From: Nitrospiria bacterium
Lineage (GTDB): Bacteria; Nitrospirota; Nitrospiria; DASWJH01
NCBI GenBank assembly: GCA_036397255.1
Contig: DASWJH010000090.1
Span: 1 to 40,277, forward strand
Direction of reading: 5' to 3'
Length of the DNA: 40,277 nucleotides
The position numbers and the translations under genes are program-made. Positions 29,567 to 39,518 of this stretch are shown here, piece after piece. The notes below the pieces were generated by a model. It had not been told where the DNA came from, ran no database searches, and saw only the letters and a program-made list of their open reading frames with translations. Numbering within the stretch: the stretch's first letter is position 1; every line of letters starts with the position of its first letter.

Positions 29567-30043
29567 ATGATTTCTAAAATTTTATGGGCCATTTACCTTA
29601 TTTCCCTTTCTTTTATGCTGGGGGGGATTGCTTTTTTATCTTTTTTTGTTGCCCCAATTGTATTTCAAAACTTTTCCAATGAGGAAGCGGGAAATATCAT
29701 GAACACCATTTTTCCCGGTTACCACATGCTGAAGATTGCCTGTGGTTTTTTAGCTGCCGGGTGTTTGATTTTTCTCGGCTTTCTTGAGCGAAAATGGCCG
29801 GTCATTCGTTTAACATCCATTGGGGTGGTTTTGGCGTTGAACCTATATTCCGGACTGGTTGCGGGGCCACAAGCGTCTAAAATTCGGGATCAAATTAATC
29901 AACAAAAAGCTAAGGGGGTTCTTTCCCAGGAACTGAAAGAACAGTTTAATCAAATTCACAAAAAAGCAGTTTTCTTAAACGGGAGTGTATTATTAGTGGG
30001 TCTGGGGCTTCTCTTGGAGGCTGGATTTCGAATTCGGTCCTAA
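29567..30043 (+). CDS. DUF4149 membrane protein
   Basis: 158-residue membrane protein with four hydrophobic segments (about 5-27, 53-72, 80-98 and 135-153) and a polar, helical loop at 103-130 (KIRDQINQQK...). The pattern, including SFMLGGIAFLSFFVAP at the start and LYSGLVAGP, fits the DUF4149 / TMEM205-like family, whose role is unknown. GGAG 6 bases before the ATG. It stands just ahead of the hopanoid genes, separated by 159 bases. Confidence 0.75.
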   Translation: MISKILWAIYLISLSFMLGGIAFLSFFVAPIVFQNFSNEEAGNIMNTIFPGYHMLKIACGFLAAGCLIFLGFLERKWPVIRLTSIGVVLALNLYSGLVAGPQASKIRDQINQQKAKGVLSQELKEQFNQIHKKAVFLNGSVLLVGLGLLLEAGFRIRS

Positions 30044-30202
30044 ACACCGTTGGTATCTAACTTTTTCTGGGCTTTGGTTTGACTTGGTAGAAGCCATTTG
30101 TTACCCTTTTCTATCTCCCAACCCCCTTTTAATTTTCCCCGTGTGAAAAGTTTAGAACAGAAAAAACTTTTCAACCGGTTTCATTTTTCAAAAGAGGACC
30201 CG

Positions 30203-31093
30203 ATGGACCTTCAGGCCTATTTAGAACAGAAGAAAAAAAGGGTAGATGAGTATTTGGAGCAGGTTGTTCCCTCCGAAAATACCTATCCCCAGGTTCTCCA
30301 TAAAGCCATCCGCTATAGTTTATTTGCGGGGGGAAAGCGCATTCGTCCCATACTGGCTATTGCTGCGTTTGAGGCGGTAGGTGGAGGGTCTGATGTCATC
30401 CTTCCATTTGCTTCTGCTCTTGAACTAATCCACACCTATTCGTTGGTTCACGATGATCTTCCCGCCATGGACAATGATGATTTTAGGAGAGGAAAACCCA
30501 CCAACCATAAGGTCTTTGGGGAGGCCATGGCCGTATTATCGGGGGATGCCCTTTTAACCTTGGCCTTTTCTCTGATGACGGAGGAACGTATTTTAAAAGA
30601 GATTGAACCCCAATTGGTTTTACAAGCCAGCCGAGAAATTTGCTTTGGGGCGGGAAATTTTGGAATGATTGGAGGACAGGTAGTGGATATCCTTTCTGAG
30701 GGTACCCATGTGGATTTTGGAACACTGGAATATATTCATACCCATAAAACAGGCGCCTTGATTCGGGCCGCTTTGCGGGTCGGAGGGGTCATTGGAAAAG
30801 CCAATAAAGAAAACCTTTTGGGTTTGACCCGTTATGGAGAGTGTGTTGGTTTGGCATTCCAAATTGCGGATGATCTTTTAGACATTGAAGGGACCAAAGA
30901 AGCTCTCGGAAAGAATACCAAAGGAGATGAAAAAAAAGGAAAAATCACCTACCCTGCTTTTTTAGGGCGGGAGCCCGCTCGACAAAAAGCCCAAGAATTA
31001 ATGGATATGGGAATTAAAAATTTGGATTCCCTGGGGGAATCGGCCAAGCCGTTGAGGGAACTGGCCTCTTTTATTGTTCACCGGAAGCATTAG
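30203..31093 (+). CDS. ispA: Farnesyl diphosphate synthase
   Basis: Trans-prenyltransferase condensing IPP with DMAPP and GPP to farnesyl diphosphate. GGKRIRP (43-49), first Asp-rich motif DDLPAMD (84-90) and second Asp-rich motif DDLLD (223-227) are complete. The DDLPAMDND form and 296-residue length suit an IspA-type (C15) enzyme. I start at the ATG with AGAGGA about 5 bases upstream; a longer frame from 30098 adds 35 non-family residues. FPP feeds UppS and squalene, the precursor of the hopanoids made by the genes that follow. Confidence 0.95.
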   Translation: MDLQAYLEQKKKRVDEYLEQVVPSENTYPQVLHKAIRYSLFAGGKRIRPILAIAAFEAVGGGSDVILPFASALELIHTYSLVHDDLPAMDNDDFRRGKPTNHKVFGEAMAVLSGDALLTLAFSLMTEERILKEIEPQLVLQASREICFGAGNFGMIGGQVVDILSEGTHVDFGTLEYIHTHKTGALIRAALRVGGVIGKANKENLLGLTRYGECVGLAFQIADDLLDIEGTKEALGKNTKGDEKKGKITYPAFLGREPARQKAQELMDMGIKNLDSLGESAKPLRELASFIVHRKH

Positions 31094-31095
31094 GA

Positions 31096-32082
31096 ATGAA
31101 AACCTTAGTGACGGGGGCAAATGGGTTTATTGGATCCGCTGTGGTTCGGGCACTCCTTCGATCCGGGGATGAGGTCAGGGTTTTCGTGCGCCCTGGCAGT
31201 GACGTTCAAAACCTGGAAGGGTTGAGGGTTGAGATTGCTCCGGGTGATTTACAAGATTTCACCTCTATGCGATCGGCACTAAAAGGGTGCCGCCGCCTTT
31301 TTCATGTTGCCGCATTGTACAGTCTTTGGCTTCCGAAACCATCAGAAATGTATAAAACCAATGTGACGGGAACTCGGCATCTGATGGAAGCGGCAATGGA
31401 AGAGGGCATTGAACGGGTGGTTTATACCAGTACTGTAGGAGCGGTGGGAATTCCTATTGACGGTGGATGGGGGAATGAATCCACTCCATTGGAATGGGAT
31501 GATGTGTTTGGGCATTATAAACGCTCAAAATATATGGCCGAAAAAGAGGTTTTAGGTTTGGTGGAAAAAGGATTGCCCGCTGTGGTGGTGAATCCCAGTG
31601 CCCCCATTGGTCCTCGGGATGTGAAACCTACGCCCACCGGACAAATTGTGGTTGATTTTTTAAAGGGAAGAATGTGGGCTTTTATGGAAACTGGATTAAA
31701 CCTGGTTGATGTTGAGGATGTTGCAGAGGGTCATCTTTTGGCAGCGGAGAAAGGCCGGATTGGGGAACGATATATTTTGGGGAATAAAAATATGATGCTG
31801 AAGGAGGTTCTAGAATTGTTATCGGGGATTACCGGGGGAAAAGCCCCATCCCTCAAAATTCCTTATAAGATTGTTCTTCCAATGGCTTATTTGAATACTG
31901 GACTCTCAAATTATATTACTCATCGGGCTCCCCGAATTCCCCTTGAGGGCGTTAAAATGGCAAAGAGGAGTATGTTTTTTGATTCCTCAAAGGCCGTTCG
32001 TGAGTTGGGTTTTCCTCAGCGTTCTGTAGAGGATGCCCTGCGGAGGGCGGTAGATTGGTTCCAAAATAACGGGTATATCTAA
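31096..32082 (+). CDS. hpnA: Hopanoid-associated sugar epimerase HpnA
   Basis: Extended short-chain dehydrogenase with NAD-binding TGANGFIG (6-13) and catalytic Tyr141-xxx-Lys145 (YKRSK) plus Ser/Thr at 111-113. Sequence features such as FHVAALYSLW, NVTGTRHLMEAA and NPSAPIGPRDVKPTPTGQIV fit the HpnA subfamily found in hopanoid clusters; its exact substrate is not settled. It starts 2 bases after ispA with AGGA right before the ATG, so the two are one unit. Length 328 is standard. Confidence 0.9.
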   Translation: MKTLVTGANGFIGSAVVRALLRSGDEVRVFVRPGSDVQNLEGLRVEIAPGDLQDFTSMRSALKGCRRLFHVAALYSLWLPKPSEMYKTNVTGTRHLMEAAMEEGIERVVYTSTVGAVGIPIDGGWGNESTPLEWDDVFGHYKRSKYMAEKEVLGLVEKGLPAVVVNPSAPIGPRDVKPTPTGQIVVDFLKGRMWAFMETGLNLVDVEDVAEGHLLAAEKGRIGERYILGNKNMMLKEVLELLSGITGGKAPSLKIPYKIVLPMAYLNTGLSNYITHRAPRIPLEGVKMAKRSMFFDSSKAVRELGFPQRSVEDALRRAVDWFQNNGYI

Positions 32083-32089
32083 ATAGAAA

Positions 32090-33013
32090 ATGGATTTTTT
32101 TCTCCTGCTTTTTTCAACTGTCCTATATCGTCCTTATGTTTTTATATTTCTTATTTTTTTTATCTTAGCGGGTGTCCTAACCCTTGGTGCGAAAAAAACG
32201 TTTGTTCTCCTTGGAATGACCTGGGTCATTGCATTCTTGTCCGAATATAGTTCTACCCGTATCGGTTTTCCATTTGGGGATTATTTTTATATTGAATCTA
32301 CGAGGGACCGTGAAATTTGGGTTTCTAATGTTCCCTTTATGGATTCCCTTTCTTTTACTTTTTTAGCTTTTGTTAGTTATACCTTTTCTCTTTTCTTTTT
32401 TCTGAAAGTCTCTTTCCAAAAAAAGGGAATTCTAAGCGATGAAGATGGAAGCAGACATTCATGGAGGGTACTGGGGCTTGCGGTTCTTTTGTTTGTATTT
32501 TTAGATGTGGTCATCGATCCGTTGGCACTCCGTGGCGATCGGTGGTTCTTGGGTAAGATTTTCGGGTATGCTTCGGAAGGGGTGTATTTTGGGGTTCCTC
32601 TTTCCAATTTTCTGGGATGGGCTTTCGTCGGAAGCACGAGTCTTTTTCTGTTCCAGTTATATGATCAAAAGAGCACCCCGAGAGGCCAGGTATGGGAGGT
32701 TCCCCTTCGTCGATTAGTTTTGGGTCCCATTCTTTATTACATTATTTTGATATTTAACCTCTCCATGACGTTTTGGATTGAGGAGAGCCTCCTTGGGGTG
32801 GTTGGAATTTTTATCCATTTTCCTATATTATTATTTTTTCTTTTTCGAATGGGTGAACTCCTCCAGTTTTCAAAAATGACACCTCTTTGGAGACCTTTGG
32901 AAAAGGGAAAAGACCCAAAGGGTTCTAATACACCTGGTTTTCTCTTGCATCAGCAAGTTTTTCCTTTTCAATCGGAGGGATTAAAATCTGGACCTTCGAA
33001 AAGTAAGGGATAA
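32090..33013 (+). CDS. CruF-like carotenoid hydratase family (DUF422) membrane protein
   Basis: A 307-residue membrane protein with about seven hydrophobic segments. Conserved blocks SEYSSTRIGFPFGDYFYI (51-68), DVVIDPLALRGDRWF and GVYFGVPLSNFLGW identify the carotenoid-biosynthesis / CruF (bisanhydrobacterioruberin hydratase) family. Known members add water across a terminal double bond of a C40-C50 isoprenoid. Here it follows hpnA by 7 bases, with no crtB or crtI nearby, so a role on a hopanoid or squalene-related lipid is possible. The polar C-terminal tail (about 265-307) is extra. Confidence 0.8.
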   Translation: MDFFLLLFSTVLYRPYVFIFLIFFILAGVLTLGAKKTFVLLGMTWVIAFLSEYSSTRIGFPFGDYFYIESTRDREIWVSNVPFMDSLSFTFLAFVSYTFSLFFFLKVSFQKKGILSDEDGSRHSWRVLGLAVLLFVFLDVVIDPLALRGDRWFLGKIFGYASEGVYFGVPLSNFLGWAFVGSTSLFLFQLYDQKSTPRGQVWEVPLRRLVLGPILYYIILIFNLSMTFWIEESLLGVVGIFIHFPILLFFLFRMGELLQFSKMTPLWRPLEKGKDPKGSNTPGFLLHQQVFPFQSEGLKSGPSKSKG

Positions 33014-33156: not shown

Positions 33157-33185
33157 TTGACACCGACCAGGTTATCTGGTATAAA
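33157..33185 (+). promoter_or_regulatory. hpnH promoter with operator-like spacer
   Basis: TTGACA (33157-33162), a 17-base spacer and TATAAA (33180-33185): a near-consensus sigma70-type promoter. The spacer holds ACCAG-GTTAT-CTGGT (33166-33180), a 5-bp inverted repeat reaching into the -10, so a dimeric repressor could close it. It would drive hpnH-shc-hpnG from about 33192, with a leader near 75 bases. Confidence 0.65.
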
Positions 33186-33268: not shown

Positions 33269-34267
33269 ATGAGATTCCCGATTCAATTAACGTTTTCCTT
33301 AACCAAGTACCTAATGAAAAACAAAATAAAAGGGAAAAAACGTTTCCCAATTGTACTCATGCTTGAGCCCCTTCACCTGTGTAACCTTGCCTGTGACGGA
33401 TGTGGTCGAATTAGGGAATATAAAGAGACCATTCAGGATTCCATGCCGTTAGAAAGGTGCCTTGAAGTGGTGGATGAATCGGAAGCCCCAGTGGTATCCG
33501 TTTGTGGAGGGGAGCCCTTGATATATCCCCATATCGATGCCTTGGTAAATGGAATTGTGAAACGAAAACGTCACCTTTATCTTTGCACCAACGCAATCAA
33601 TCTTGATAAGCATCTTCCTCATTTTCCAAAGAGCCCCTATTTCACCATCAATGTTTCAATGGATGGTTTAGAGAAAACCCACGATCTCACCCGAGGTCGG
33701 AAAGGGTTATACAAGCTCGATCTTCGCATGATCCGTCTTGCAAAAGAAAAGGGTTTCAGGGTGGTCACCAATACCACGGTTTATAAAGAAACGGATGTCA
33801 AAGAAATTGAACAGATGTTCGAAGAATTGTATTCCGCTGGAGTGGATGGTTTTTTGGTCAGTCCGGGGTATCATTATGAAGCCGTACAAGACGATATTTT
33901 TATGACCCGGGAAGAAATCCATGAGAAATTTAAAGCTATTTATCAACTCTCCAAAAAATTTCGGTTTTATAATACGCCTCTTTATTTAAAGTTCCTTACC
34001 GGGGAAAGGCATTTCGACTGTACCCCATGGGGAAATATTACCGTCAATCCTCAAGGGTGGAAAGGCCCATGCTATTTAATTACAGATCAGCATTTTAAGA
34101 GTATGGCAGATCTTTTGGATGGGACGGATTGGGAGCGCTTTGAGAAGAGGGAAGACCCTCGTTGCCGAAATTGCATGATGCATTGCAGTGTTGAACCGAC
34201 CGTGGTTCGTGAAACAGGCCAAAATTGGCGAGACATGGCGGAAATGATCCGCTGGAATCTTAGCTAA
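33269..34267 (+). CDS. hpnH: Hopanoid biosynthesis radical SAM protein HpnH
   Basis: Radical SAM enzyme that joins the 5'-deoxyadenosyl radical to a hopene to give adenosylhopane, the first step of side-chain extension. The cluster motif CNLACDGC gives Cys38, Cys42 and Cys45 (CxxxCxxC). GGEP (about 79-82) and NVSMDGLEKTHD are typical. Near the C-terminus are CTPWGNITVNPQGWKGPC and CRNCMMHC, extra cysteines shared by HpnH. Length 332 is standard. AAAGGGA 7 bases before the ATG. First gene of a new unit. Confidence 0.95.
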   Translation: MRFPIQLTFSLTKYLMKNKIKGKKRFPIVLMLEPLHLCNLACDGCGRIREYKETIQDSMPLERCLEVVDESEAPVVSVCGGEPLIYPHIDALVNGIVKRKRHLYLCTNAINLDKHLPHFPKSPYFTINVSMDGLEKTHDLTRGRKGLYKLDLRMIRLAKEKGFRVVTNTTVYKETDVKEIEQMFEELYSAGVDGFLVSPGYHYEAVQDDIFMTREEIHEKFKAIYQLSKKFRFYNTPLYLKFLTGERHFDCTPWGNITVNPQGWKGPCYLITDQHFKSMADLLDGTDWERFEKREDPRCRNCMMHCSVEPTVVRETGQNWRDMAEMIRWNLS

Positions 34268-34363
34268 CCTAAAAAAATCCCTAAAACATGTTGAATTTTT
34301 ATAGCCCGTTAAGATTTATTTGATTGGATTACTCGAGTCGAATTGCAGGAGGAAAAACCCGTC

Positions 34364-36388
34364 GTGAGAAGTCCTAACCTATTGGACAAAGATGCTACCC
34401 TACCCCGACCTACTACCCAAGAGCCCCATGGGCTCCCCTTGGATGAGGCCATTGACCGGTCGATCGGTTTTCTTTTAAATGTTCAAAATAAAGACCTTGG
34501 TTTTTGGGTAGATGAGTTAGAAGCCGATTCCACCTTGACTTCGGAGTATCTGATGCTTCGATTTTTCTTGGGAAATTTGGATCCCCTCCGGCGAAAACGA
34601 GCGATGACCTATTTGAAGAAAACCCAACTTCCCGAAGGGGGGTGGAGTATTTATTATGGTGCCCCCAGTAACATCAGTGCTTCGGTAAAGGCCTATTTTG
34701 CATTGAAGCTTTGTGGTGTTTCCCGACATGAACCTTTTATGAAAAAAGCCCGTGAAGTGATCATGGAAATGGGGGGCGTTCCTAACGTCAATGTATTTAC
34801 AAAAATTTCCCTTGCTTTATTTGGACAATACGATTGGCGGGACATTCCCTTTTTGCCTCCTGAAATTATTCTTTTATCCAAACGGTTTTATTTTAATTTG
34901 TATGAAGTTTCCTATTGGTCACGTGCAGTCATCGTTCCCCTCTTAATTATTTATGCCAAGAAACCGCTTTGTGTGGTCTCCCCCAATGCCCATTTGGATG
35001 AACTCTTCCCTGAAGGTCATTGGGATAAAAAAGGGCAAAAGAAGCGGGACTACGGAATCATTTCCTGGAAAAATGTTTTTTTAACTCTTGATTCCTGTTT
35101 GAAAGTTTTGGATCGGTTTCACCTTAAGTTTTTAAGGGAAAAGGCCGTTCAAAAGGCTCATCATTGGCTGGTGGAACATATGCGGGGAGAAGGGGGGCTG
35201 GGTGCTATATATCCAGCGATGGCCAATTCAATTGTTGCCTTGCGTGCAATGGGCAACCCTCCTGACCACACCCAAATTCAAAAAGCACTAGGCGAAATTG
35301 AGGATTTAGAAATAAATCAGGAAAATTCAATGCATCTGCAACCTTGCGTTTCCCCTATCTGGGATACACCTTTAACCATTAATGCACTCTTGGAGGCGGG
35401 TATAACACGGGACCATCCCAGTATTGTAAAAGGCGCCCAGTGGCTTCTATCCAAACAGGTGTCATCCGTTGGGGATTGGAAAGTAAAAGTTCCCGCAGCA
35501 GAACCGGGGGGGTGGTATTTCCAATTCGAAAACGAATTTTACCCAGACAATGACGATACCTCGGTTGTATTAGTTGCTTTATGCAAAAGTGTCCTTCCCG
35601 ATGAGGAAGAAAAAAGGAAACAAATGGTGCGAGGGATTCGGTGGTTTTTGAAAATGCAGGGAAGCGATGGCGGGTGGGGGGCTTTTGACAAAGATAACAA
35701 TAAAAAAATTCTAAATAACATCCCTTTTGCGGATCATGGGGCCCTTTTGGATCCAAGTACGGCCGATTTAACCGGGCGGGGACTGGAGTTTCTTGGGCTT
35801 TTGGGTTTTGATGAAGATTTTCCTCCAGCTAAAAAAGCGTTGCATTTTCTAAAAAAAGAGCAGGAAAAGGAGGGGGGATGGTATGGCCGTTGGGGAGTCA
35901 ATTATATTTATGGCACCTGGTCCGTCCTTAGCGGTTTAAAAACCATTGGTCAAGACCTCAACCAGGATTTTATCCGAAGGGCGGTGGATTGGTTAAAACG
36001 GTGTCAAAATCCTGATGGAGGATGGGGGGAATCCTGTGAATCCTATTCCAATCCTTCTTTGGCGGGGGTTGGCAACAGCACGGCATCTCAAACTGCCTGG
36101 GCATTGATGGGGTTGCTTCAAGCCGGAGAAGTAAACAGTTTAGAGGTTTTAAAGGGGGTTCTTTATCTCCTGAAACACCAGCGTGAGCAAGGGAAATGGG
36201 ATGAGGCGGAGTTTACAGGCACGGGGTTTCCCAAAGTGTTTTACCTTCGATATCATATGTATTCAAAATATTTCCCGCTTTGGGCTCTGGCCCAGTTTCG
36301 GTCCCTTAAGTTGAGGGGAAAATTGCTTTCCGATGATGTTCGAGAAGAAAACAAAAAATCCGGAATATTTCTGCGTTTGTTAAGGTGA
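34364..36388 (+). CDS. shc: Squalene-hopene cyclase
   Basis: Membrane-bound class II triterpene cyclase turning squalene into hopene/diplopterol. The acid motif DxDD is DNDD (395-398, in PDNDDTS), where DVDDTA is commonest. QW-type repeats such as GGWSIYYG, GGWGAFDKDN, GGWYGRWGVNYIYGTW and GGWGESCESY are intact. The start is GTG with AGGAGG (34347-34352) 11 bases upstream; a TTG at 34343 overlaps that site. About 674 residues, normal for the family (630-720). Also called hpnF. Squalene-forming hpnC/D/E are not in this window. Confidence 0.97.
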   Translation: MRSPNLLDKDATLPRPTTQEPHGLPLDEAIDRSIGFLLNVQNKDLGFWVDELEADSTLTSEYLMLRFFLGNLDPLRRKRAMTYLKKTQLPEGGWSIYYGAPSNISASVKAYFALKLCGVSRHEPFMKKAREVIMEMGGVPNVNVFTKISLALFGQYDWRDIPFLPPEIILLSKRFYFNLYEVSYWSRAVIVPLLIIYAKKPLCVVSPNAHLDELFPEGHWDKKGQKKRDYGIISWKNVFLTLDSCLKVLDRFHLKFLREKAVQKAHHWLVEHMRGEGGLGAIYPAMANSIVALRAMGNPPDHTQIQKALGEIEDLEINQENSMHLQPCVSPIWDTPLTINALLEAGITRDHPSIVKGAQWLLSKQVSSVGDWKVKVPAAEPGGWYFQFENEFYPDNDDTSVVLVALCKSVLPDEEEKRKQMVRGIRWFLKMQGSDGGWGAFDKDNNKKILNNIPFADHGALLDPSTADLTGRGLEFLGLLGFDEDFPPAKKALHFLKKEQEKEGGWYGRWGVNYIYGTWSVLSGLKTIGQDLNQDFIRRAVDWLKRCQNPDGGWGESCESYSNPSLAGVGNSTASQTAWALMGLLQAGEVNSLEVLKGVLYLLKHQREQGKWDEAEFTGTGFPKVFYLRYHMYSKYFPLWALAQFRSLKLRGKLLSDDVREENKKSGIFLRLLR

Positions 36389-36397
36389 GGAATATAC

Positions 36398-37219
36398 GTG
36401 CAACGGATTGCGATCTTAGGTGCGTTGGATCGTGAAATCCGAGGCATTCGTCGTGCCCTTGACAATCCCCGGAAAATTTCTATACCCGGTTTGATGGGCT
36501 GGTCCGGTTTTATCGGCTCAAGAGAAGTCTTTTTGGTTCAAACTGGAATAGGTCCTATTTCTGCCGGAAGTGCGGCAGAAAAAGTCCTCACCAAAATTTC
36601 CCCCCAAGCGATTCTCTCCGTTGGATTTGCCTGCGCTCTTCGATCAAAAATCCTTATTGGAGATATTATCCTTTCGGTCGCCATGGCACAATCCTCTCCC
36701 GATGGAACCCTCATCGGCAGGGTCCTTGAGAATCATTTTATTTCCTTTAAATCCTTATCTGGGTATCCATTTCATGAATTGGATTCTTTGGTGGATCCGA
36801 AGGGGTCTTTAGCTTTCTTAGGAAAAGAAAAAGGGTTTAATGTTTATACGGGGTTAATCCTGACCCTGGACCATATGGTTCAGAAGGCTCAGGATAAAAA
36901 AATTTTGGCCAAACAAACCCATGCCGTGGCCCTTGATATGGAGAGTGCTGTCATAGGTGAAAAGGCAAAAGGATTTCAGATCCCCTTTTTGGCGCTCCGG
37001 GGAATTTCTGACCTTCTGGATGAGGATCTAGAAGTGGAGTTTGACCGTATCATCCATCCTGATGGGTCTTTTCGCTTCTGGTCTGGGGTTCCTTATTTAT
37101 TTTCCCATCCCTTGACTTTCTTCGAGCTTTACCGTTTAAAGCAACAAACCCAATTGGCCTCAAAAAACTTGACCTGTTTAGTTTTTCGTTTACTTCAAAC
37201 TCAAGAGGACCTGATTTAG
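36398..37219 (+). CDS. hpnG: Adenosylhopane nucleosidase/phosphorylase HpnG
   Basis: Purine-nucleoside-phosphorylase-like enzyme that removes adenine from adenosylhopane to give a ribosyl-type hopane, the step after HpnH. Nucleoside phosphorylase features: VQTGIGPISAG (47-57), SVGFACAL (74-81), and DMESAVIGEKA (180-190), the ribose-binding Met-Glu. GISDLLDED supplies the base-binding Asp. Start GTG has GAGG 8 bases upstream and follows shc by 9 bases. Length 273 is a little long owing to the C-terminal tail. Confidence 0.9.
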   Translation: MQRIAILGALDREIRGIRRALDNPRKISIPGLMGWSGFIGSREVFLVQTGIGPISAGSAAEKVLTKISPQAILSVGFACALRSKILIGDIILSVAMAQSSPDGTLIGRVLENHFISFKSLSGYPFHELDSLVDPKGSLAFLGKEKGFNVYTGLILTLDHMVQKAQDKKILAKQTHAVALDMESAVIGEKAKGFQIPFLALRGISDLLDEDLEVEFDRIIHPDGSFRFWSGVPYLFSHPLTFFELYRLKQQTQLASKNLTCLVFRLLQTQEDLI

Positions 37220-37244: not shown

Positions 37245-38468
37245 GTGGATTTTTTAAAAAATTTTAAGAATTTAAATTATAAATTTGGTTTTCTTTGCTT
37301 TTTGTTTCTTTATTTAGGCATTTGTTTTTTTTCCACCGTTGTCTTTGCTAAAAAAAAAATCATTCCCGTTCCCGCTATTTCAACTTCCCGAAATGATGGG
37401 GTGGAATATGGAACATTGGTTACCGTTCTTTTCGAGGATGAGGATGATGATGTGTATGCCATCTTAGCCCCTTCTTTAACTTATAATGAGTTTATTGGTC
37501 TCAAATCAGCATTTCGGTTTTTTTACTTCGGCGAAGATAATCAAGATTATGCGGTCATTGTTTCGAGTTCTACGGGAATTGATCAGAAGGTTTTTTTTGA
37601 ATATTCAAAACCAAAGTTTTTAGGTGAAAAACTTTTGTTTTATTCATCGGTGACCGCCTTCCGGGATTCCACAAGACGTTTTTTCGGTTTTACCGCAGAA
37701 AGTTTGGATGAAAACGAAAGTAATTTTACCCAAAGGGAGTTTGCTTATGATTTTTTGCTGGGACACCATTTTTTTGACCATTTCCGTTTATCTTTTGGAG
37801 AACGTCTCCGCTGGATATCCATCGGAAGAGGTAGTGTTCCCGATGAACCTTTTTTCAAAGACGAATTTCCATCCATTCCGGGGGCCGGAGGGGGGCTGGT
37901 ATTGGGCCACCGACTGGTGTTGGCGTTTGATTCCCGGGATGAACTCGATATCCCCTCTTTGGGTTCCTTGGTGAGATTTTACACGGAGGTTGGCCAGGTT
38001 TTCAATGCGGACAATGGGGACCATCTTTTTAATGGGACGGGATTAGATGCGAGGAAATGGTTCCCGATGAGGGATAGTCTTTTTGTTACCGTTCTTCGAG
38101 GGGCGGTTTTTTTTACCACTGGAAGTAAAACGCCTTTTTATGAAAAGGCGACTTTAGGTGGAGATGATACCTTGAGAAATTTTGGGGATGGACGATTTGT
38201 GGATGACCATTATTATCTTTTAAGTATTGAAGAAAGGTTTCGTTTGGTTCGTTTTAGACTCTTTGGGGTCTTGGCCGATTGGGAGCTTGCCACTTTTGTG
38301 GATATCGGAAGGGTTTTTGGAAAATTTCATAATCTTTTGGATGAATTACAGGTGAATCCGGGTTTTGGAATCCGTGCCTTGGTTAGACCCAATGTGGTGG
38401 GGCGTTTTGATGCGGGGTTTGGGCCCGAAGGGATGACCCTATTTTTGGGTCTGGGGTATCCTTTTTAG
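37245..38468 (+). CDS. Omp85/BamA-like outer-membrane barrel protein
   Basis: A 407-residue exported protein: signal peptide ending near VFA (residue 35), then alternating beta strands and a terminal Phe (GLGYPF), the usual outer-membrane signal read by BamA. LGGDDTLRNFGDGRFVDDHYYLLSIEERFRL resembles the Bac_surface_Ag barrel region (GG..LRGY..GRF.D......E.R) of Omp85 proteins. No POTRA domains precede the barrel, so it is a barrel-only member. The start is GTG; AAGGGG is only 4 bases upstream. It follows hpnG by 25 bases and may share its transcript. Possible role in surface lipid export is inference. Confidence 0.75.
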   Translation: MDFLKNFKNLNYKFGFLCFLFLYLGICFFSTVVFAKKKIIPVPAISTSRNDGVEYGTLVTVLFEDEDDDVYAILAPSLTYNEFIGLKSAFRFFYFGEDNQDYAVIVSSSTGIDQKVFFEYSKPKFLGEKLLFYSSVTAFRDSTRRFFGFTAESLDENESNFTQREFAYDFLLGHHFFDHFRLSFGERLRWISIGRGSVPDEPFFKDEFPSIPGAGGGLVLGHRLVLAFDSRDELDIPSLGSLVRFYTEVGQVFNADNGDHLFNGTGLDARKWFPMRDSLFVTVLRGAVFFTTGSKTPFYEKATLGGDDTLRNFGDGRFVDDHYYLLSIEERFRLVRFRLFGVLADWELATFVDIGRVFGKFHNLLDELQVNPGFGIRALVRPNVVGRFDAGFGPEGMTLFLGLGYPF

Positions 38469-38495
38469 TACAATTTTATTGAGAAATGATCTTTT

Positions 38496-39518
38496 ATGAA
38501 ACATTGGATTTTAATGGGCCTCAGTATTTTTATTTTTTCAGCATGCCAGGTGGAAGCTTTTGACCCTGAATGGGGGCATGGCCCCCTCCCCGCACGGAAT
38601 TATGCCCCCGTTGCCAATCATTTTCTGAATATGGTCGCCACCCCTGCCAAAACACTCTCAAAAAATCAGTGGCAAATTAAAACTGAATTTGTGGAATCCA
38701 ACGCGATTTTGTTAGAAGAAACCCCAGAGGTAAATGGGGTCATCAAACATGAAACCTTAAGGTTTTCTTTAAATGTCAATTACGGATTGACGGATCGTTT
38801 TCAGATTGGGGTTGAAGTTCCGGCTTTTTATCGGTTTGACGGATTTTTAAATTCTTTTATTGAAAGCGTAGAAGATGCTTTTGCCCATTTAAACCCTAGT
38901 CGGGTGAAGCTGATCAACAATGAATTTGATTACCGAATTGATTTAAACGGACAAAGAATTATTGAAGGGGAGGAAGATGATGTGGGTTTAGGGGATTTAA
39001 TATTGAACACACGATGGGTGGCGATAAAGGAAGGAGAAACACGCCCTGCAGTTGCCCTTCGATTGGCTTTAAAGGTTCCAACAGGAGATACCGCAAAATC
39101 TTTTGGAAGCGGGGACCCGGATGTGGGGTTGGGTTTAGCCGTCCAAAAGGGATTTGGAAAAAAGTGGGTATGGTATTCCAACGTGAACGGTGTATTCCCA
39201 ACGGGTGATTTTATGGATACGGGCCTCGATTTGGCCCCTTTTTTTAGCGGAATGTTAGCCATGGAATATCGGCCAATTCCACGTTTTTCCATTTTGACAC
39301 AGTTTGAATACTTTTCCACCCCCTTTCACGGGATAAACTCCCCTATTCTGGAAGATGGTGTGGGTGAAATTACCGCTGGAATTAGCTACCTGATCAGAGA
39401 GAATTTCCTGTTTCAAATGGGTGGAACGGAAAACTTTACGGATCCCTTCCCAGATGGCAGTTCCGCTGACTTTTCTTTTTTTGTAACGTTCGGTTACCAA
39501 TTTGAAAGGGAGGGGTGA
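38496..39518 (+). CDS. DUF3187-like outer-membrane protein
   Basis: A 340-residue exported protein with a short signal peptide. Cleavage could be after VEA (about residue 21) or lipid modification at Cys17, though Phe at -3 makes the lipobox poor. The body has repeated strand pairs such as RFSLNVNYGLTDRFQIGVEVP, VALRLALKVPTGD, and VGEITAGISYLI, the pattern of DUF3187 / transporter-like barrels. It follows the Omp85-like gene by 27 bases. Function unknown. Confidence 0.65.
   Translation: MKHWILMGLSIFIFSACQVEAFDPEWGHGPLPARNYAPVANHFLNMVATPAKTLSKNQWQIKTEFVESNAILLEETPEVNGVIKHETLRFSLNVNYGLTDRFQIGVEVPAFYRFDGFLNSFIESVEDAFAHLNPSRVKLINNEFDYRIDLNGQRIIEGEEDDVGLGDLILNTRWVAIKEGETRPAVALRLALKVPTGDTAKSFGSGDPDVGLGLAVQKGFGKKWVWYSNVNGVFPTGDFMDTGLDLAPFFSGMLAMEYRPIPRFSILTQFEYFSTPFHGINSPILEDGVGEITAGISYLIRENFLFQMGGTENFTDPFPDGSSADFSFFVTFGYQFEREG

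Follow-up and report, generated by a model that had tools for sequence, protein, structure and literature searches.

A PF04240 membrane protein gene keeps company with hopanoid genes in several bacterial phyla and probably performs an unrecognised hopanoid step

Hopanoids are sterol-like lipids of bacteria that serve as sterol surrogates and are major geological biomarkers. In a study of hopanoid genetics, hpnA, hpnB, and hpnL are left without established function, and its main text mentions no carotenoid genes (PMC12583986). The accessory genes hpnA, hpnB, hpnL, and hpnM resemble the gene described here in that they are likewise co-located and co-occurring with shc and hpnH and have no established reaction. 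Among the unassigned genes in hopanoid clusters of Acidobacteria, ug2 is an alcohol dehydrogenase. The closest described enzyme by family is CruF; in E. coli that makes lycopene, the N. spongiae enzyme was shown to add water to acyclic psi-ends, yielding tertiary alcohols (PMC11855829). In the open-access literature, we found no paper that joins CruF or PF04240 with hopanoids or that names PF04240 in a hopanoid cluster, and an earlier notice elsewhere is possible.

The window, the whole stretch of DNA analysed here, is an entire contig of 40,277 bases from a 3.35-Mb assembly that is 97.5% complete, and its features are listed in Table 1. The PF04240 reading frame begins with ATG and is free of stops, and the reverse strand opposite is full of them; it is a real gene, set within a hopanoid cluster as an earlier reading of the bare DNA (the sequence-only reading) had described. 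All genes run on the same strand in the order ispA-hpnA-PF04240 gene-hpnH-shc-hpnG, with 2 bases between ispA and hpnA and 7 between hpnA and the PF04240 gene, a spacing that agrees with the proposed single unit with ispA. The annotated start of ispA is TTG, and its family match begins only near residue 36-43. A 255-bp gap containing a promoter-like TTGACA-17-TATAAA, a pattern with a chance expectation of 0.65 in the window once one mismatch is allowed, separates the PF04240 gene from hpnH, so transcription may be split between ispA-hpnA-PF04240 gene and hpnH-shc-hpnG, and the former is the safer unit compared with the full run through hpnG. The position of the HpnG-like gene after shc matches that in relatives.

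Table 1. Coordinates and profile scores of the hopanoid-related features in the window
Feature	Position	Strand	Remarks
ispA, farnesyl diphosphate synthase	30098..31093	+	NF045485 357 bits, cut-off 275
hpnA, hopanoid-associated SDR ('sugar epimerase')	31096..32082	+	TIGR03466 477 bits, cut-off 368
hpn-type PF04240 (CruF-superfamily) membrane protein	32090..33013	+	307 aa; PF04240 82.8 bits; 293 relatives
promoter-like TTGACA-17-TATAAA, 5' of hpnH	33157..33185	+	only exact match in window
hpnH, adenosyl-hopene transferase (radical SAM)	33269..34267	+	TIGR03470 409 bits, cut-off 225
shc, squalene-hopene cyclase	34343..36388	+	TIGR01507 792 bits, cut-off 431
HpnG-like phosphorylase	36398..37219	+	TIGR03468 97 bits, below cut-off 187

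Several features around this cluster were recorded in their own right. A DUF4149 membrane protein (29567-30043) lies immediately 5' of ispA, and an Omp85-like protein and a DUF3187 protein (37245-39518) lie downstream of hpnG. In a Nitrospira-family genome (L144), the same Omp85/DUF3187 pair comes after shc-hpnG, MlaE, an ABC ATPase, and MlaC, and the Omp85 is found there in L145 as well; going by gene content, the Omp85-like and DUF3187 genes with the Mla genes look like a module for the transport of hopanoids or other lipids to the outer membrane. The HpnH proteins of the window, G006, and three genomes of Methylomirabilota group together by their low scores (365-414 bits), compared with about 530-560 for Nitrospira HpnH, a hint that they are a divergent subfamily or that the hpnH-shc block was transferred.

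The window protein matches PF04240 (Caroten_synth) with 82.8 bits (E 4.3e-23) against a cut-off of 25 bits, with residues 18-238 aligned to positions 7-205 of the 209 in the profile, and its relatives in other groups score 80-92 bits. All three CruF models fail on it (TIGR03460, 54.5 bits against a cut-off of 154.7; NF041333, 38.4 against 300; NF045693, 36.1 against 400), and relatives from other groups score similarly (26-51 bits), whereas the positive controls pass, with 377.5 against 300 for an annotated Halarchaeum CruF and 471 against 400 for a Nostoc member. The label "CruF-like" of the sequence-only reading is therefore apt at the superfamily level and does not extend to the CruF equivalogs, whose cut-offs the protein misses by far. 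In the phylogenetic tree, 48 hpn-type sequences cluster with support of 91/92, and the stem that leads to them measures 5.4 changes per column; where exactly this clade attaches is unsure because the outer branches are very long, as the tree program itself warned. The window protein belongs to a clade separate from true CruF within PF04240. The two types share the Pfam family, the character of a polytopic membrane protein of terpenoid metabolism, and an invariant core; they differ in that the hpn-type proteins are only 17-24% identical to the non-hpn members aligned, carry a short insertion (ALRGDRWFLGK) following D143-P144 and the conserved motifs RPYVF, SSTR, and PFMDS, and have ispA-hpnA or hpnH-shc as neighbours, in contrast to the order crtB-crtI-prenyltransferase-cruF in Halarchaeum. 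Other PF04240 genes, in G005 and on Bradyrhizobium and Legionella plasmids (L038 8616-9557, L141 2965-3882, L138 5887-6768), have neither carotenoid nor hopanoid neighbours in evidence, and since carotenoid neighbours are missing, the name "carotenoid biosynthesis" is probably wrong there too. In the plasmid collection, the sole match of the window protein was one distant Legionella PF04240 gene.

Scanning GTDB genomes with a 14-sequence alignment as the query yielded 293 relatives, and gene neighbourhoods were taken from the best 80 of these, which belong to Nitrospirota, Nitrospinota, Methylomirabilota, and Nitrosospira/Nitrosovibrio. Within these best 80 of 293, 73 loci extend far enough to test the upstream neighbour of the PF04240 gene, which is hpnA in 61 of them; the next gene downstream is hpnH in 6 of 72 testable loci, and 70 of the 80 carry one or more hopanoid or squalene markers. 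The order is ispA-hpnA-PF04240 gene in Nitrospirota and hpnA-PF04240 gene in Nitrospinota. In Methylomirabilota it is PF04240 gene-hpnH-shc-hpnG, with hpnA-ispA-hpnD further on in one locus (L126) and a 4-base overlap between the PF04240 gene and hpnH in another (L070). The window locus unites both neighbourhoods, ispA-hpnA and hpnH-shc-hpnG. As gene-order evidence, two distinct hopanoid neighbourhoods in separate phyla are stronger than a single inherited arrangement. In the four ammonia oxidisers examined (Nitrosospira/Nitrosovibrio), the gene lies away from hpn genes, and the only marker found with it in three of these is a squalene synthase, about 6 kb downstream. A Pyrinomonadaceae (Acidobacteriota) bin also carries a PF04240 gene on a 5.8-kb contig (L123 593-1558) and has no squalene-hopene cyclase; because in the tree its protein falls in with one from Nitrospirota, binning contamination or transfer is possible.

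Co-occurrence with squalene-hopene cyclase (SHC) was close to complete. Among 58 genomes of the class, 23 have both SHC and PF04240, three SHC alone, one PF04240 alone, and 31 neither (PF04240 in 24, SHC over cut-off in 26), giving a Fisher p of 6.5e-12 that is uncorrected for kinship and only descriptive because the genomes are related. All 23 class genomes with an hpn-type gene have SHC, and the one genome with PF04240 alone (G005) carries a distant member, 23-24% identical, in a different gene context. In 15 genomes reached via other loci, one of which (G071) is identical to G027 of the class set, SHC is present in 14, the exception being the Pyrinomonadaceae bin, HpnA is over cut-off in 12, and HpnH is found in most. 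One genome of the class (G039, 100% complete) has ispA-hpnA, hpnH, and shc without the PF04240 gene; a non-homologous substitute was considered there and set aside, the gene after hpnA being a cytochrome c and so not an obvious replacement. An action independent of HpnH, on C30 hopanoids only, was also considered on account of three Nitrospina genomes without HpnH; most other Nitrospinota have HpnH, so the Nitrospina gaps are probably assembly losses and were not taken as evidence for it. Recurrent linkage with hpn genes was the deciding test named in the sequence-only reading, and the adjacency to hpnA, the hpnH-shc-hpnG block of Methylomirabilota, and the near-perfect co-occurrence with SHC all bear it out. 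It is highly likely that the gene is dedicated to hopanoids.

The absence of carotenoid genes remarked upon earlier holds for the window, and the check proposed for crtB and crtI gave the same picture for the genome. One of its two PF00494 genes encodes HpnD, which passes its cut-off with 290 bits, and the other a squalene-synthase-like protein. Its five Amino_oxidase matches comprise two protoporphyrinogen oxidases and one sugar-locus oxidoreductase, assigned by profile scan, along with two GltD-type proteins, judged from sequence; CrtI, CrtN, and HpnE were not found among these matches in the 97.5%-complete genome. A crtI_fam match over cut-off occurred in none of the 58 genomes of the class and in 4 of 14 control genomes, and no crtI match at E 1e-20 was found in the 15 genomes reached via other loci with the PF04240 gene. 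The source genome (G000) has HpnD and the squalene-synthase-like protein (L033 10674-11582; L034 9237-10274) without HpnC or HpnE, so the product of HpnD has no obvious outlet via the HpnCDE route. The steady companionship with hopanoid genes in genomes without a recognisable carotenoid desaturase suggests that the PF04240 gene probably performs an unrecognised hopanoid step. To our knowledge, the gene is missing from well-known producers of hopanoids, and hence it cannot encode an essential core step.

Sequence comparison revealed residues that are identical in hpn-type proteins and in the proteins annotated as CruF from Halarchaeum and Nostoc (E52, G59, P61, P82, D139, D143, G164, P170, N173, G176, and W177), together with others that are nearly so across both types (Y65, Y67, P144, and G168). 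Invariant within the hpn-type clade, too, are the RPYVF motif, S55, R57, E75, M84, S86, and W152, among others. By analogy with CruF, a buried acidic residue (E52, D139, or D143) may donate a proton to a terminal isoprenoid C=C, leaving a tertiary cation that water would trap to give a tertiary alcohol, or the reverse reaction would remove one. On the chemistry of the family, the suggestion in the sequence-only reading that squalene or hopene may be hydrated is plausible. Applied to hopanoids, the isopropenyl group of diploptene would be hydrated to diplopterol, and the reverse would return diplopterol to HpnH; this pair is the best candidate because the isopropenyl group is the sole exposed isoprenoid C=C between SHC and HpnH. 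Our tentative reading, to which we give slightly less than an even chance, is that the gene encodes an integral membrane enzyme from the CruF/PF04240 family which the hopanoid pathway has recruited and which would hydrate or dehydrate an isoprenoid C=C there, with diploptene and diplopterol as the best candidate substrate. As to its parts, by this analogy we hold the case for a reaction that adds or removes water to be evenly balanced, and the assignment of diploptene/diplopterol as the specific pair to be doubtful; the next candidates would be squalene or some hopanoid intermediate on which HpnA acts. SHC alone already yields some diplopterol, which counts against the need for a hydratase.

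Predicted structures brought in a different lead. Modelled with AlphaFold2, the window protein (pLDDT 87.6, pTM 0.83) and a Methylomirabilota relative (89.5, 0.88) both show a short N-terminal helix followed by about seven long helices. Neither model had a significant Foldseek match in the PDB, and profile searches against PDB sequences yielded no credible hit and no support for Insig. VIA-align placed the mycobacterial Insig homologue MvINS at the top for both models, at Z 8.3 and 9.1, values under the level of about 13 below which such scores may be common among helical bundles; the superposition has an rmsd of 2.6-2.8 A over 139-140 residues, with a predicted core of residues 30-199, and the rows that follow fall to Z 6.1-6.4 with an rmsd above 4. 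The hpn-type protein differs from Insig and MvINS in having no detectable sequence similarity to them, and the resemblance may reflect an arrangement of helices that is common. Insig is a sterol binder, and hopanoids are sterol analogues; we know of no enzymatic role for Insig. The weak likeness to MvINS in these models is recorded as a lead. The nearest solved fold, weak match though it is, is a lipid-binding sensor rather than an enzyme, which counts against the enzyme reading. That this is a new, unnamed family of nitrifiers and Methylomirabilota, dedicated to hopanoids and with a membrane fold in common with Insig, the animal sterol sensor, seems improbable; if true, an Insig fold that serves as hopene hydratase/dehydratase or senses hopanoids would tie bacterial hopanoid handling to sterol sensing.

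Gene adjacency, in itself, fits equally well with a side-chain step taken jointly with HpnA and with a role that is not catalytic. A partner of HpnA could make or alter the C35 side chain, for example in the conversion of ribosylhopane to bacteriohopanetetrol, a step for which we know of no enzyme, rather than hydrate a C30 hopanoid. In keeping with such a partnership are the frequent position of hpnA directly upstream in the best 80 of 293 relatives, the presence of HpnA and HpnH alongside the PF04240 gene in most genomes, and the lack of an assigned function for hpnA itself (PMC12583986; PMC5462960). We nevertheless consider it unlikely, as four of the five Methylomirabilota loci adjoining hpnH show no hpnA within the stretch examined, one such genome (G062) has no HpnA at E 1e-60, G039 has HpnA without the PF04240 gene, and the C35 side chain offers no isoprenoid C=C of the kind that CruF chemistry needs. 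If the protein hydrated another isoprenoid, be it squalene not yet cyclised or the chain of a polyprenyl or quinone, the gene would be linked to hopanoids only via the supply of FPP or squalene. The Nitrospirota order with ispA, the nearby squalene synthase in three genomes of Nitrosospira/Nitrosovibrio, and the psi-like ends that squalene bears in common with lycopene are consistent with this; it is rendered rather unlikely by a co-occurrence that tracks SHC, by the Methylomirabilota genes adjoining hpnH-shc-hpnG, and by the consideration that SHC would lose any hydroxysqualene.

The structural lead raises a role other than catalysis, in which an Insig-like membrane protein would bind hopanoids or their precursors and regulate or scaffold the pathway. 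MvINS being the best structural match of two independent models speaks for it; yet Foldseek returned no significant match, Insig lacks support from sequence, the Z scores lie in a range that may be common for helical bundles, and the candidate catalytic residues of the true hydratases are invariant here, so we regard this role as quite improbable. An ordinary hydratase acting on C40 or C30 carotenoids, the latter a substrate suggested by the sequence-only reading and now disfavoured, would explain the Pfam name and the distant similarity to CruF. No desaturase was found in the source genome or the relatives, the CruF equivalog cut-offs are failed where controls pass, and the neighbours are hopanoid genes instead of the crtB-crtI-cruF set of Halarchaeum. 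With neither a desaturase nor HpnE found in the genome and the CruF models failing, the carotenoid role was rejected as hardly credible.

Several genes of hopanoid clusters still lack a reaction, and here a multi-phylum, hpn-linked gene consistently goes under the wrong name of "carotenoid biosynthesis protein." Its carriers include nitrifiers and the phylum of the nitrite-dependent methane oxidisers, and renaming it clears a false signal of carotenoid synthesis from their genomes. For hopanoid biology, the chemistry of the family leads to a simple guess, namely that the protein may control the balance of diploptene and diplopterol or take part in a step linked to HpnA.
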